The translations under genes and the position numbers were made by a program. This document shows positions 12,790 to 19,691 of a stretch of 38,410 nucleotides of DNA, piece by piece; the stretch's first letter is position 1, and each line of letters opens with the position of its first letter. The stretch spans positions 1-38,410 of the forward strand of contig JALUTR010000216.1 of the NCBI GenBank assembly GCA_027021785.1, given 5' to 3'. The stretch comes from Fidelibacterota bacterium (GTDB lineage: Bacteria > Fidelibacterota > Marinisomatia > Marinisomatales > JAADGP01). The notes under the pieces were generated by a model. It searched no databases. It was not told the origin of the DNA and saw only the letters and a program-made list of their open reading frames with translations.

Positions 12790-13179
12790 TCATTTTTGAA
12801 TATATTTTTTTATTTTATCCATCATCTCCCGGCGGTTAATCGGCTTGGACAAATAGTCATTACACCCGGCGCCCATACAATTTTCCCTGTCCCGGGCAAA
12901 AGCATGGGCAGTGGTGGCAATGACGGGAACTCCTTTCCAGCGATCAAAAGTCCGCAAGTAACGGACCAGGTCCAACCCGTCTTCGTCACCTTGCAAGGAT
13001 AAATCCAAAAGGATCAAATCAACCGGTTTGGTTTCCATTTTTTGTTTTGCCTCCGCAACTGAAACGGCAAAACAAACATCGTATTCATCTCTCAGTAAAA
13101 ATGACATCAATAATTGCGTGTTTTTATCATCCTCGACAACCAATACCACCGGTTTCTGTTTTTCATTAGCAGACATCAT
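12790..13179 (-). CDS. Orphan CheY-like receiver (response regulator)
   Basis: A 129-residue single-domain receiver. The acidic pair E16-D17-D18 follows the first strand (VVLVVEDD), the phospho-acceptor is D59 in LILLDLSLQG, the switch Thr is in VIATTAHA (T89/T90), and the conserved Lys is K112 in YLSKPI. All catalytic positions are present, so it should accept phosphate. No DNA-binding or other output domain follows, and no kinase gene is adjacent; the nearest histidine kinase is at 27034-29982. It may work by protein-protein contact, as CheY/Spo0F-type proteins do. It is flanked by spacers of about 500 and 300 bp, so it is probably transcribed alone. A close second ATG lies one codon inside. 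Confidence 0.95.
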   Translation of the reverse strand: MMSANEKQKPVVLVVEDDKNTQLLMSFLLRDEYDVCFAVSVAEAKQKMETKPVDLILLDLSLQGDEDGLDLVRYLRTFDRWKGVPVIATTAHAFARDRENCMGAGCNDYLSKPINRREMMDKIKKYIQK

Positions 13180-13475: not shown

Positions 13476-15770
13476 TCAGAAGGCGTAAGTCAGGTTGGCC
13501 GTGGCAATGATATTGTTGTTTTTCCCCTGGACGGTTGAACTGCGCCGGTATTCGGTGATCATGTTCGCGGTGAGATTGTCAATGAGTGAGAATCGAAAAC
13601 CACCTCTTATCCCAAAGCGTGTTAAATCCGTCTGCCCGGCTCCGGAAGTGTAATTTACTCCTCCAAGCAGGTTAAGCTTCCGGTTAAACAATCCGTATTC
13701 GGCATCAAATTTCAGGCTCGTAAACGTTTGCCTGGCTATCATTCCCGGACCGATGCTGAATTCACTGGCGTTGGAAGTAATGTTGATGGAGGTCTTCAAG
13801 GGAATTGCGAAGCGGGAATTAATCGTCAGGTTATATACACTGGAAGTTAATCCCGGATCGATAAAAGTGGTATCGAGATCCCGGTTGTCATACAGGTCAT
13901 TTTTTTCCAGATTAACAATAGTTCCCGAAATATCGTGTTGCATATCAAAGGCGTTAAAACGGTAATTCAAGGTCGCCGTAACGTTTGCGGTCTGAGTATT
14001 CTCACGATTATCCGAGTAATTTATCTCACCTGTCGATTGATTAACCAGTGTATCCAGGTAAGTTATTCCATTATTGCGCCCAAATATTCGAAAGCTCAGG
14101 TTTACCGTGGGTAAATTCGGTCCCGGAAGAAAGGTCAAATTCGTTAAAATCGTATTCTGGCTGGTAACATTGGTAACCGCTGTGGAAATGTTATCATCCT
14201 GGTATTTGTAAAGTAATGTCAGGAGTAATCGATTTTTAAACAACTGAATTTTATCACTTATCGAGAACTCACGATTATTGTTTAACAGGTAGGGATTTGC
14301 CAGCGACATAAATTCCGGTCCGACCTGTGAATATTCGGCTACAATATAGTGGCCAAAATAATTCAGCTTCGCGCGCGTACGCATTGCTATCGAAGGCATG
14401 CTTAAAACAGCTTCGCCGAAGGAAACCTTACTGCTGTCGCCAAATATGGAAATATCAATGGGTGAAAGAGGTGACATATTCTGGTTTATAATGAAGAAAT
14501 CCTTTACGTCTTTCGGATCGAAGGGAAGTTCATCCAAATCAAGCGAACCGGCGAGATTATTATCAAGGGTATCGTCCAATAGTGTATCCAATTGTGCCTT
14601 GGACATGGCGCCGTCCCAGATATCGCGGTTCAGCATACTAAACGCCAACTCTCCTTCCAGCAATATTCGCTTGTGGTCCAGGTAAAAACCCAAATCCGTA
14701 CCCAGGACAATATTGTCCTGTGGCGCGGGGCCTTCCCAGTCGGATTGTTTTGCCAATTGGACGGAAAGATTCGGAACGTCGCCCATGGCGATCAATTCCG
14801 AATAGGTATAAATACCGGCGGCTATTCCGAGAGTATCACTGGTAAGTTCAATCCGGGCATTATTCAGATCTTTTTTAACGCTTGTCATATCGTCGCGAAC
14901 TTTTACCAGGCTTAACCCCAATTGGAAGTTTTCACCCCTGCCAAAGCTGAGTCGCCCCCCCTTTAATTCCTGGCGAAACGTGTAGCCTTTACGGTTCAAC
15001 TCCATAACCAGTTGATCACCCTCCCTGGTGAACTTTTCCAGGGAATACGATTCATTCGTACCAAGCCCACCCTGGACGGCACGGTTAATATCGCCCTGAA
15101 CATAATGAAAGTTGATGACGCCCAGTTTGAAATTGGCATCCACTCCCCGCACACGCTTCCCATCGACCATGAATCTGCTTAATTTAGGATTCGTATCGCC
15201 AATATTTAAATCCAGGTAACGGCCTAACGATACCCCGAATCCGAAACGGTTCCGGGGTTGGATCAAAGGATCTTCCTCGGTTGTAATCTTGATATTCGTT
15301 TTAAAGCGCAACCAGTCCCCGTAAGAACCGTTCAGGTTGATTCCGAATTGACCAACCGCCAATTCTTCTACTTCGTATTTATCGTACCGGTATCCGGTGG
15401 TAACTCTCCCGCCAAGTTCGAATAAATCGGCGGCACGTTGTTTTCCGGCCACCTGGAAAGTCCAGGTTTTCGTCACGGGCGGACGACCTTCCTCGCCCCG
15501 GACAAAAATTCGAATTTCATGCTTTCCCGGAGTCATTACCGACGGCGTATATGAAATCATATCGGCATCAATCATGGCCCGACTGGTTAAATCCTGTCCG
15601 TCAATGTAAAGACGCACATTGGCAGGGTTCACTTCTCCCAATTCGAAAAAAGAGGCCGCAATCAGCGCTTCGGTTTTAAGAACCGTCGAACCGGGTTCCG
15701 GACTGAATATCTGAATTGACTGGGCACACAAACCCGACAAAAGAAATAACGAAAGAACCAATCTTTTCAT
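13476..15770 (-). CDS. Large outer-membrane beta-barrel protein with N-terminal Ig-like domain
   Basis: Predicted 764-residue outer-membrane protein of unknown function. The longest frame opens at 15872, but I chose the ATG at 15770 because it starts a clean signal peptide (MKRLVLSLFLLSGLCAQS) and lies 4 nt after the stop of the FecR gene. An Ig-like module follows (IQIFSPEPGSTVLKTEALIAASFFELGEV, VRLYIDGQDLTS, ISYTPSVMTPGKHEIRIFVRG, KTWTFQV). The remainder is a long series of amphipathic strands separated by polar turns, ending TANLTYAF with the C-terminal Phe typical of Bam clients. Many strands have the Y/F-x-L-x alternation of porin-like barrels, but there is no TonB plug. It is the last gene of a three-gene operon with a FecR-domain protein and a secreted Ig-like protein. 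Confidence 0.85.
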   Translation of the reverse strand: MKRLVLSLFLLSGLCAQSIQIFSPEPGSTVLKTEALIAASFFELGEVNPANVRLYIDGQDLTSRAMIDADMISYTPSVMTPGKHEIRIFVRGEEGRPPVTKTWTFQVAGKQRAADLFELGGRVTTGYRYDKYEVEELAVGQFGINLNGSYGDWLRFKTNIKITTEEDPLIQPRNRFGFGVSLGRYLDLNIGDTNPKLSRFMVDGKRVRGVDANFKLGVINFHYVQGDINRAVQGGLGTNESYSLEKFTREGDQLVMELNRKGYTFRQELKGGRLSFGRGENFQLGLSLVKVRDDMTSVKKDLNNARIELTSDTLGIAAGIYTYSELIAMGDVPNLSVQLAKQSDWEGPAPQDNIVLGTDLGFYLDHKRILLEGELAFSMLNRDIWDGAMSKAQLDTLLDDTLDNNLAGSLDLDELPFDPKDVKDFFIINQNMSPLSPIDISIFGDSSKVSFGEAVLSMPSIAMRTRAKLNYFGHYIVAEYSQVGPEFMSLANPYLLNNNREFSISDKIQLFKNRLLLTLLYKYQDDNISTAVTNVTSQNTILTNLTFLPGPNLPTVNLSFRIFGRNNGITYLDTLVNQSTGEINYSDNRENTQTANVTATLNYRFNAFDMQHDISGTIVNLEKNDLYDNRDLDTTFIDPGLTSSVYNLTINSRFAIPLKTSINITSNASEFSIGPGMIARQTFTSLKFDAEYGLFNRKLNLLGGVNYTSGAGQTDLTRFGIRGGFRFSLIDNLTANMITEYRRSSTVQGKNNNIIATANLTYAF

Positions 15771-15774
15771 GGTT

Positions 15775-16449
15775 CTATCGATATTGAATAACAATGGTTT
15801 TAATGTTGCCATTCTCATCCTCAATCTCAAAACGAAGTTCATGTTGTTCAGGTCCTTCCCCGTCTTCTTCACCGAAATCCGGAATATCAGACTCCTCGGT
15901 CATCGTCACATTCAGGTCGCCATCAGGAGTGGAGTTAGCGGTTTCGCCTTCATTTACGGTGGCGCTTTGGCCGGTCGAATTGTTGGTTACCACAATGCTC
16001 CCAATCAGAGTGATGAACAAATCACCAAAAACGGGATCCGAAATAACAATAATATCGGTACCCTTTACCGACGCCACGGAAGTCGGGGTGGCAATGATGA
16101 ATTCCTTGCCTTTTTGTTTGGATACGGATGCCATCATCGTTCCGTACGATAAGGATACGCGCTTAATAATGCCCTCCGCCGTCTTTTCCCCGCCGATTAA
16201 AAACTCGGCATCGTTGCGGACTTTAATTGTCGTCTTATCATCGAGATACATGGCGACGGCAAAACCGTCCTTTCCGGTACGAATCACGTCTTCATTTACC
16301 AGACCTGTTCCCCGTTTCAGCGGTTCCACGAGCTTTGTCTCGGCCTGGATTAATTTCACGTCCCCCTTGGCCTTCATGACAATTGCCACTTTACTGCCGG
16401 CCGTTAAGACCGTAGCCAACATAATTGATAATATAATCAGCCGTTTCAT
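15775..16449 (-). CDS. Exported FecR-domain protein
   Basis: A 224-residue protein with a cleavable signal peptide (MKRLIILSIMLATVLTAGS). The FecR core occupies about residues 20-170: VAIVMKAKGDVKLIQ, an RTGKDGFAVAMYLDDKTTIKVRNDAEFLI beta-hairpin repeat, LSYGTMMASVSKQKGKEFIIATPTSVASVKGTDIIV and LIGSIVVTNNSTG. The C-terminus is acidic (ESDIPDFGEEDGEGPEQHE), then a final strand NIKTIVIQYR. Classical FecR proteins are membrane-anchored sigma-factor regulators. This one has no N-terminal cytoplasmic anti-sigma segment and no neighbouring sigma gene, so it more likely has an envelope structural or binding role. It overlaps the upstream gene by 4 bp (ATGA) and is followed after 4 nt by the barrel gene, so the three genes are translationally coupled. 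Confidence 0.9.
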   Translation of the reverse strand: MKRLIILSIMLATVLTAGSKVAIVMKAKGDVKLIQAETKLVEPLKRGTGLVNEDVIRTGKDGFAVAMYLDDKTTIKVRNDAEFLIGGEKTAEGIIKRVSLSYGTMMASVSKQKGKEFIIATPTSVASVKGTDIIVISDPVFGDLFITLIGSIVVTNNSTGQSATVNEGETANSTPDGDLNVTMTEESDIPDFGEEDGEGPEQHELRFEIEDENGNIKTIVIQYR

Positions 16450-17663
16450 TCTTCCACCTCCACCGAAATAACTGTAATCGGATGATAGGTAGTATTCCCT
16501 AACGAATCGGTCTCGGCCACTCCCTGAGTAAGAAGTGACTGAATTACGGACAGATCGACACTGTTACCGTCCAGGATGATATTTCCATTGGTGGAATAAG
16601 CGGCATAAGGTTTCCCGGATCCGAATAAGGAGTTAAACTGTTCATCACCAATCAACGATTGCAGGGTTATCATGACCGGATCGGTAAGGACACCGGCTCC
16701 GCTTTCCGCACCTTCCGAAGCGGTAAAATCCTTCACTTTAAAAGCAAAGATTTCACTGAGTATCCCATCCATTCCGGCGGTGGTGTCCAATACTTTCAGG
16801 ACCTGCCACACATAGACTTTTCCCGGTTCCAATTCACCGGCATCGGTAGCCGGATATTGAAACGAAGTTACACCGCGCCCTACCGGATACCAACCCTGGT
16901 TTTGATCAAGTGGTAACCTGGTTAAGGATTCAATAGCTTCCTCCACGGTGGCATGTTGCCCCGGAATAAACTCAGCCACGCGAATGTAAAACATACATCC
17001 CTCCGGTATATTACACGGATCTGATTCCCACTGCAAAACCGGATAATTTGTATAAACTTCATTAATCGACGTGTCGGCTAAGGTGATGCTGCCAGGGGTC
17101 ATTAACTGCAGGTAAGTCGGCGTTGAAACATTGATTACCTCTTCACGTTGGACAAAAATATCATTCGGGTCATCGCCGTTCATGATAGAGACGATAAAAC
17201 GGTAAATACCATCCGGTAAACGTCCGGATTGTACTACTGTGTTAAACAATTCTTCAGCTTCACCTATCTCGATTCGCTCTTCGATGGTAACTCGGAACGG
17301 TACCCGGTTACCCTCCACGTCATAGATTTCCCTGGTATCAATGGTCAGATCCTGGTTATTCAGGACAATTGGCGCCTTCAACCAGAACGGATCGGTTACC
17401 ATGCGAATAAGCGGTTCATCATACATATTTAGCGTCTCTGAATTAATCTGAATCTCGAATTCTATTATAACCGATGTGCTGTCTTCTTCGGTCGATAAAG
17501 TGGCGTTAAAAATAGGAACATTCGAGCTCCCGGTGTTCAAATCGATCGAACTTACGTAATAGGTCACATACGGTGTAAAATCAATAATCAGTTGAACGGG
17601 GCCGGATCCCTGACCAAAAGCTACCGCGACGGCGATCAAAAGCCATAATGGTCCTCTCTTCAT
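16446..17663 (-). CDS. Secreted beta-rich protein, first gene of the FecR operon
   Basis: A 405-residue exported protein of unknown function. Signal peptide MKRGPLWLLIAVAVAFGQG; no lipobox. The mature part is beta-rich with several Ig/FN3-like segments: VIIEFEIQINSETLN, GRLPDGIYRFIVSIMNGDD, then TNYPVLQWESDPCNIPEGCMFYIRVAEF...GKVYVWQVLKVLDT, which resembles a fibronectin-type fold, as in proteins where ligand properties are listed (PVLQWE / VWQV). Two cysteines (DPCNIPEGC) may form a disulfide. The C-terminus (SVDLSVIQSLLTQGV...) is less ordered. The start is firm: TAGGAG lies 7 nt upstream of the ATG. Coupling to the FecR gene by a 4-bp overlap says the products act together in the envelope. 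Confidence 0.8.
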   Translation of the reverse strand: MKRGPLWLLIAVAVAFGQGSGPVQLIIDFTPYVTYYVSSIDLNTGSSNVPIFNATLSTEEDSTSVIIEFEIQINSETLNMYDEPLIRMVTDPFWLKAPIVLNNQDLTIDTREIYDVEGNRVPFRVTIEERIEIGEAEELFNTVVQSGRLPDGIYRFIVSIMNGDDPNDIFVQREEVINVSTPTYLQLMTPGSITLADTSINEVYTNYPVLQWESDPCNIPEGCMFYIRVAEFIPGQHATVEEAIESLTRLPLDQNQGWYPVGRGVTSFQYPATDAGELEPGKVYVWQVLKVLDTTAGMDGILSEIFAFKVKDFTASEGAESGAGVLTDPVMITLQSLIGDEQFNSLFGSGKPYAAYSTNGNIILDGNSVDLSVIQSLLTQGVAETDSLGNTTYHPITVISVEVEE

Positions 17664-18098: not shown

Positions 18099-19691
18099 AT
18101 GCCTACGACATACGATTACATCATTATCGGATCGGGATTTGGCGGGTCAGTCTCCGCTTTAAGGCTGGCTGAAAAAGGATACAGTATCGCGGTCATCGAA
18201 CAGGGAAAGCGCTATTACCCGACCGACTTTCCAAAAACCAACTGGAACCTGCGTAAATATTTCTGGCTGCCCCAATTTGCTTTGTACGGTTTTCAGGCCA
18301 TGACCCTGATGAAGGACGTGTTTATTCTTCACGGAGCCGGAGTCGGCGGGGGCAGTCTGGTCTACGCGAATAACTTATTAATCCCCCCCGATGACGTGTT
18401 CAACGATCCCGCCTGGGGCGGCCCCGGCTGGAAGGAAAAATTGGCGCCCTATTACGAACGGGCCCGCAAAATGCTCGGCGCGACCCCCAGCAAGGTCGTC
18501 GCCAAAGCGGACAAACTTTTACAGGAATGCGCCGCGGAAATAGGAAAGGGGGACACCTTCCATGTGAACGATGTGGGGGTATTCTTCGGCGAACCGGGAG
18601 TTACCGTACCGGATCCCTATTTCAAGGGGCAAGGTCCCGACCGGACAGGATGTATGCTATGCGGCGGGTGCATGGTCGGGTGTCGTTACGGCGCGAAAAA
18701 TACCCTGGATATGAATTACCTTTATTTCGCAGAAAAATTGGGCGTCGGGATTATCCCCGAAACATGCGTCATCGATGTTCGCCCCCGGGGCGATCAGGGG
18801 TATCTTCTTACGACCGAACGGGTTACCGGTGTCTTTCGTCGCAGACAAACATACTTCTCAAAAGGGGTTATTTTTTCCGGCGGGGTCATGGGCACGGTAA
18901 AATTATTGTTAAAATGCAAAACCAACGGTTCCCTGCCCAATCTTTCGGACCAATTAGGGAATTTCGTTCGCACCAACAGCGAGGCCCTTGTCGGAGCCAA
19001 AGCACGCGGGAAGGACGTCGATTATTCCCAGGGGATTGCCATTACTTCCGGAATTTATCCCGATCCCGACACACATATCGAAGCCGTTCGCTACGGCAAA
19101 GGACAGGATGCCATGTCCGGGCTGGCCACGATCCTGGTCGGCGGAGGCAAACCGTGGCCCCGTCCCCTGCGCTTCCTGGGGAACATTATTCGTCACCCCA
19201 TCAGATTCCTGAGATCTTTGTACCCTTTTGGATGGGCGCAAAGAACCACGATTCTGTTGGTGATGCAAAAAATAGACAACTATCTCCGTTTCGAATACAA
19301 ACGCCGCTGGTGGCGACTTGGTGGTAAATCCATGAATTCCGATTGGAACACCGAAAAAAAGGTCCCCTCCTACATCCCGGTGGCTAACGAATTTGCGGAG
19401 CGTCTGGCAAAAAAAATGAACGGCGACGCGTTCAGTGTGTTACCGGAAGTTTTGTTCGACACCTCTTCCACGGCCCATATTTTAGGCGGTTGCAATATGT
19501 CCGAATCCCCGGATCAGGGCGTAATCGATTATTCAGGCAAAATCCATAATTATGACAATCTCTATGTAGTGGACGGCTCCATCGTGCCCGTCAATCTCGG
19601 CGTAAACCCCAGCCTCACAATTACGGCTCTGGCCGAATATATCATGGATCAATTCCCCGAGTACGACAACCATCCTGGTTGTCGTCTTTAA
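18099..19691 (+). CDS. GMC-family FAD oxidoreductase with ferredoxin-like cysteine cluster
   Basis: A 530-residue flavoprotein related to the cholesterol-oxidase/GMC group. Dinucleotide-binding motif GSGFGGS near residues 12-18, with the adenosine-ribose glutamate in VIEQGKRY; HGAGVGGGSLVYANN is the second FAD signature; the C-terminal SSTAHILGGCNMSESPDQGVID...YVVDGSIVPVNLGVNPSLTITALAEYIM carries the conserved His and Asn region. C185, C188, C191 and C195 (CMLCGGCMVGC) have the CxxCxxCxxxC spacing of a [4Fe-4S] ligand set, found in this oxidoreductase subgroup. The substrate is unknown; family members oxidise sterols or other alcohols. The last eight codons (DNHPGCRL) and the stop lie in the R1 repeat, so the native C-terminus probably ended near MDQFPEY. 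No ribosome site is evident. No signal peptide, so it is cytoplasmic. Confidence 0.9.
   Translation: MPTTYDYIIIGSGFGGSVSALRLAEKGYSIAVIEQGKRYYPTDFPKTNWNLRKYFWLPQFALYGFQAMTLMKDVFILHGAGVGGGSLVYANNLLIPPDDVFNDPAWGGPGWKEKLAPYYERARKMLGATPSKVVAKADKLLQECAAEIGKGDTFHVNDVGVFFGEPGVTVPDPYFKGQGPDRTGCMLCGGCMVGCRYGAKNTLDMNYLYFAEKLGVGIIPETCVIDVRPRGDQGYLLTTERVTGVFRRRQTYFSKGVIFSGGVMGTVKLLLKCKTNGSLPNLSDQLGNFVRTNSEALVGAKARGKDVDYSQGIAITSGIYPDPDTHIEAVRYGKGQDAMSGLATILVGGGKPWPRPLRFLGNIIRHPIRFLRSLYPFGWAQRTTILLVMQKIDNYLRFEYKRRWWRLGGKSMNSDWNTEKKVPSYIPVANEFAERLAKKMNGDAFSVLPEVLFDTSSTAHILGGCNMSESPDQGVIDYSGKIHNYDNLYVVDGSIVPVNLGVNPSLTITALAEYIMDQFPEYDNHPGCRL

Follow-up and report, generated by a model that had tools for sequence, protein, structure and literature searches.

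The FecA-FecR-FecI system joins an outer-membrane barrel, a periplasmic FecR and an inner output. To our knowledge, few of the signals perceived by CHASE2 domains have been identified, and no job has been assigned to many exported FecR proteins that lack a sigma factor. A link between FecR and CHASE2 is already known from published gene clusters. Most CHASE2 cyclases of Campylobacterota are found in clusters that include an outer-membrane protein with a FecR domain (PMC9239204), and the BiofilmReg operon of Burkholderia encodes a LysM-FecR protein beside a CHASE2 histidine kinase (PMC5192318). In Sinorhizobium meliloti, genetic evidence showed that the outer-membrane beta-barrel NsrA is needed for signal perception via the CHASE2 cyclases CyaK, CyaD1 and CyaD2 (PMC7529298, PMC13001267).

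The locus described here lies in the window, a 38,410-nt stretch of DNA from a Fidelibacterota bacterium. It comprises three genes, A, B and C, and belongs to an operon family whose full form adds a CHASE2 cyclase gene; this Fidelibacterota operon is a variant of the published FecR-CHASE2 link. The features of the locus are the following:

16446..17663, minus strand: gene A, an open reading frame for a 405-aa exported protein of an unnamed family
15775..16449, minus strand: gene B, 224 aa, with a signal-like N-terminus and a FecR domain, without an anti-sigma part
16045..16290, minus strand: FecR domain of B, residues 54-135 (PF04773)
16048..16050, minus strand: residue 134 of B, Ile in the window and Trp in 95% of cyclase-linked FecRs
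13476..15770, minus strand: gene C, 764 aa, with an Ig-like domain and a predicted outer-membrane beta-barrel ending in a C-terminal Phe
15441..15722, minus strand: Ig-like domain of C, residues 17-110 (AlphaFold pLDDT about 70-85; weak Foldseek Ig matches)
12790..13179, minus strand: receiver-only response regulator (PF00072), 297 nt downstream of the trio

The operon resembles the Campylobacterota cluster in combining a CHASE2 cyclase with a FecR-domain protein, which is called outer-membrane there, but that cluster has phosphodiesterase and TPR protein members, no A or C family is reported in it, and it is not described beside rRNA genes (PMC9239204). With BiofilmReg it shares an exported FecR-domain protein adjoining a CHASE2 sensor without a sigma factor, whereas in that operon FecR is fused to LysM and CHASE2 belongs to a histidine kinase that comes with a response regulator (PMC5192318). 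The likeness to the NsrA system, drawn by description, is an outer-membrane barrel that works with CHASE2 inner-membrane adenylate cyclases; NsrA is, however, a distinct barrel protein (barrel part at residues 600-1200), and the parts of the sources considered describe no A-FecR-C operon (PMC7529298, PMC13001267).

Lsa33 and LipL45 of Leptospira are likewise exported FecR-domain proteins without a sigma factor, but LipL45 is a lipoprotein and B has no lipobox. The barrel-FecR-output layout of the Fec system is recognisable, with a cyclase replacing the sigma factor; in contrast to Fec, no sigma factor, anti-sigma domain or recognised TonB-dependent receptor is present here, and the cyclase is the presumed output. 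Within the limited scope of the literature searched, we found no account of the A and C families, the four-gene form, the phylum-wide fixity or the cyclase-less branch.

Layout and products of the window trio

The open reading frame analysis placed the trio on the minus strand (A, 17663-16446; B, 16449-15775; C, 15770-13476). The stop of A and the start of B overlap by 4 bp at 16446-16449, and a 4-nt gap separates the end of B at 15775 from the best start of C at 15770, just as an earlier note on this DNA had described the junctions. A GTG at 15872 would give a longer C frame but is the less likely start, since a signal-like stretch follows directly on the ATG at 15770. Scanning the window for promoters and terminators returned no more than shuffled sequence did. 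Comparison with a genome of the same genus gave dN/dS values of 0.083 for A, 0.050 for B and 0.068 for C, showing strong purifying selection on all three genes. These values (0.05-0.08), together with the order and strand kept in 75 of 75 loci, indicate that the trio is not a chance arrangement.

B matched PF04773 FecR with 37.9 bits (cut-off 24), and the FecR domain was matched by 40 of 40 aligned B homologues. Neither the anti-sigma domain (DUF4880) nor any other known Pfam domain scored above its own cut-off. The lone hydrophobic stretch of B is its very N-terminus, which reads as an export signal; Pfam and hydrophobicity analyses revealed no cytoplasmic anti-sigma N-terminal domain with a transmembrane helix. 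These observations agree with the earlier description of B as an exported FecR protein that lacks an anti-sigma part; a signal-like N-terminus and a FecR domain are all that we recognised in it. The claim that no sigma gene is near was also borne out. The genome has nine sigma70 region-2 genes and four FecR genes (in the window and on contigs C381, C75 and C65), and no sigma gene, adjacent ECF sigma factors included, was found on any of the four FecR contigs. The FecR domain and the nine sigma70 region-2 genes might suggest a classic FecR anti-sigma factor acting on a distant sigma gene, but B has no anti-sigma domain, the FecR contigs are free of sigma genes, and the linkage observed in the family is to a cyclase. 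We regard this role as highly improbable, and a classic sigma/anti-sigma function was rejected on the missing domain and the sigma-free contigs.

A gave no Pfam or NCBIfam family match and no strong PDB match. With sets of 40-43 homologues, still no Pfam or NCBIfam family was found for A or C, and PDB profile searches returned no match naming either. A single weak profile match to a PKD/Ig-type domain was obtained for A, and its AlphaFold model, built from a three-sequence alignment, is beta-rich with low confidence (mean pLDDT 43.7). Of the earlier reading of A as a secreted Ig-like protein, export is retained and the Ig-like label is weak. The homologue alignment revealed a conserved Cys pair (C217 and C223) in nearly invariant columns. 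In several genomes (G144, G132, G223, G120, G201), the matches to A are broken by stop codons, perhaps reflecting assembly errors or decay of A.

The sole confidently modelled stretch of C is residues 17-110. The AlphaFold model of the whole protein, likewise from a three-sequence alignment, has a mean pLDDT of 31.9, and its barrel part, with about 20 strands, is of very low confidence (pLDDT about 20-40); Foldseek with this model returned weak Ig-domain and loose barrel matches. One C homologue matches OMP_b-brl, signal-like N-termini occur among the homologues, and 76 of 80 full-length homologues end in Phe. A terminal Phe is the usual mark of outer-membrane barrels. C is thus predicted, from the model and this C-terminal signature, to be an outer-membrane beta-barrel. 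For the Ig-plus-barrel architecture proposed earlier, the N-terminal Ig-like domain was recovered in the model; the barrel would correspond to the beta-rich remainder.

The cyclase-linked operon in the genome and the phylum

Contig C381 of the same genome carries a complete second copy of the trio (41%, 41% and 31% identity to window A, B and C, respectively). Only 4 nt behind its C gene lies a gene whose 847-aa product combines CHASE2 with a class III cyclase domain (Guanylate_cyc). The genome has two CHASE2 genes, on C75 and C381, each beside a FecR gene; no cyclase was found at the window locus within its 38-kb contig. On C75 (L017:8082-11252, plus strand), a simpler pair is present, with FecR just upstream of the CHASE2 cyclase and without A or C. 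The C65 gene (L008:4368-6656, plus strand) encodes a 762-aa exported protein with an N-terminal FecR, a Pro/Glu-rich linker, DxDxDG-type aspartate-rich repeats and a beta-rich C-terminal part, which looks like a FecR-barrel fusion. Behind the C381 cyclase, after a small transposase-like ORF, we observed a receiver-plus-PglZ protein of PorX-like architecture (L007:2583-4142, minus strand).

The phylum sample comprised 239 Fidelibacterota (Marinimicrobia) genomes, 94 of them of good quality; most are metagenome-assembled, so that absences are soft. Among the loci collected (80 fetched regions, the window and C381), A-B-C order and strand are kept in all 75 that contain the three genes, most of the others being cut by contig ends or masked. 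The median gaps are -1 nt between A and B, 35 nt between B and C, and 16 nt between C and the cyclase. A CHASE2-domain class III adenylyl cyclase follows the trio in 59 loci, C381 included, which links the FecR gene to a CHASE2 cyclase gene in this family. The earlier note had suggested testing whether the trio is conserved as a unit; within Fidelibacterota it is, and the unlinked, scattered orthologues that would have spoken against the note were not what we found. Its description of a three-gene operon was too narrow, having overlooked the cyclase as a fourth gene.

We detected A in 144 of the 239 genomes (70 of the 94 good-quality ones), C in 164 (73 of 94) and CHASE2 in 177. C and CHASE2 were both present in 158 genomes, C alone in 6, CHASE2 alone in 19 and neither in 56; the Fisher value for this co-occurrence is strong and was computed ignoring shared ancestry. 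The listed genomes of the small-genome genus g2 (0.7-1.0 Mb) contained no A, C or CHASE2. One narrow contig scan beyond the phylum sample yielded only L004 and L005 as true relatives, both from near the lineage of the window; L006, matched over only 19 residues, was treated as chance.

The linked cyclases keep the metal-binding motif, the Lys of DKxxGD (57 of 57) and the substrate Thr (52 of 52 readable), and thereby have the residues needed for catalysis by a class III adenylyl cyclase. We take this combination of metal, Lys and Thr motifs to be that of class IIIb adenylyl cyclases. On these residues, the linked CHASE2 enzyme is predicted to make cAMP.

The full operon usually lies directly downstream of 23S-5S rRNA genes on the same strand. 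Of about 49 full loci whose upstream sequence is readable for 250 nt or more, 39 have a 5S gene that ends some 110-750 nt before A and is itself preceded by 23S, C381 included (L007:12683-12800 for the 5S, with the preceding 23S; further examples among L046-L123). Many contigs end just upstream of A because the rRNA genes adjoin. In four full loci, a long stretch of upstream sequence contains no rRNA (L092, L103, L121, L122), and the cyclase-less copies of the window clade are not beside rRNA. An intrinsic terminator follows the 5S gene in 31 of 41 loci, which disfavours co-transcription with the rRNA, so that shared transcription is not an obvious reason for the placement. Behind the 5S gene on C381, its 3' part recurs in decayed tandem copies, each followed by a terminator-like hairpin (L007:12320-12680, minus strand).

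Origin and possible wiring of the window copy

In a quick tree of C, the cyclase-less copies group together (22 rows, all from the window's order) beside the cyclase-linked copies of that order; the branch joining their two subgroups has an SH-aLRT of 94, just below the 95 mark. The simplest account of these sequences would be one old duplication followed by loss of the cyclase gene. One sub-line has a longer FecR (520-700 aa), and the other, including the window, mostly has a shortened C; the window C is without the N-terminal extension. A further trio, L067 (G145:C194), sits beside rRNA in the cyclase-linked branch with no cyclase found downstream, apparently a separate cyclase loss. A search among the neighbours of about 20 cyclase-less copies found no conserved partner gene beyond A-B-C. 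Divergent from gene A, a GMC-type oxidoreductase gene (18099-19691, plus strand) is present in the window and again in L005, indicating that the neighbourhood of the duplicate is partly retained between genera.

The alignment of B showed Trp at the residue-134 site in 95% of 56 cyclase-linked FecRs. This Trp is absent from all 15 short cyclase-less FecRs, the window included, and is retained in four of four long cyclase-less FecRs (L057, L058, L073 and L077, all 520-700 aa). Trp134 is put forward, from its distribution, as a candidate contact with the cyclase. Its loss in the window copy suggests that this copy is no longer coupled to a cyclase in the same way.

The loss of Trp134 from all the short cyclase-less FecRs, and the missing extension of C, would also fit a copy that has been re-wired, either to another output, for example the receiver protein downstream, or as a decoy for the cyclase-linked trio. 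The response regulator lies close downstream within the genus, and two genomes of the window's order, G212 and G197, have a C match and no CHASE2 match. These genomes are, however, only 82% and 71% complete. Neighbour comparison found the response regulator adjoining the trio in the same genus only, so that it is probably not part of the conserved unit. Re-wiring appears rather unlikely, though not negligible; it covers the window copy only and is compatible with a signalling role of the full operon. The window copy, an old paralogue from which the cyclase gene has apparently been lost, may feed into the same cAMP pathway as a second input, reporting to the cyclase of the other locus, or may have a cyclase-independent job.

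A proposed trans-envelope relay

We consider it reasonably probable that the trio serves as the receptor of a signalling system that spans the envelope and whose ancestral output is the CHASE2 cyclase and cAMP. In such a relay, C would form the signal end, with a beta-barrel in the outer membrane and a soluble Ig domain; B would be a free periplasmic FecR-domain adaptor touching CHASE2, and A, also exported, would be a partner located in the periplasm or on the surface. Signals from the surface or envelope would thereby reach the extracytoplasmic CHASE2 domain of the inner-membrane class III adenylyl cyclase, which would make cAMP. The operon structure, its linkage across the phylum, the cyclase motifs, the duplication and the purifying selection are observed; the barrel topology, the protein-protein contacts, the direction of the signal and the cAMP product are inferred.

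The earlier note had suggested a surface-assembly or binding complex, of which the conserved unit has been upheld. The trio might be a structural or adhesive surface complex with the cyclase as a passenger or regulator, given that the cyclase-less copies hold A-B-C with no other conserved neighbour and that other exported FecR-domain proteins are named surface adhesins or lipoproteins. B itself gave sub-threshold matches to the Leptospira NCBIfam models of Lsa33 (E 5e-14, 52 of 420 bits) and LipL45 (23 of 350 bits) and to the LapA-type retention module (17.8 bits, NCBIfam cut-off 50), and a profile search gave a weak hit on the structure of an antifreeze protein. The adhesin matches are, however, far under the curated cut-offs, and the full form has a cyclase beside the trio across the phylum. 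We regard this alternative as unlikely. Since the cyclase is the last gene of the operon on C381 and throughout the phylum, signalling is the better reading of the full operon, and the cyclase-less copies may have another job.

Extending the signalling reading, we tentatively propose, at somewhat less than even confidence, that FecR has been repurposed phylum-wide from an anti-sigma factor to an adaptor between a barrel and a CHASE2 adenylyl cyclase, in an operon fixed behind the rRNA operon in most of the phylum, with a second, cyclase-less branch derived by one old duplication. The constant position behind the rRNA genes is itself a case of conserved gene order. The natural cyclase-less duplicates and the candidate residue Trp134 provide built-in controls, and the operon offers a defined four-protein set for FecR-CHASE2 coupling, made up of the putative barrel C, the free FecR B, the new exported family A and the linked CHASE2 cyclase.
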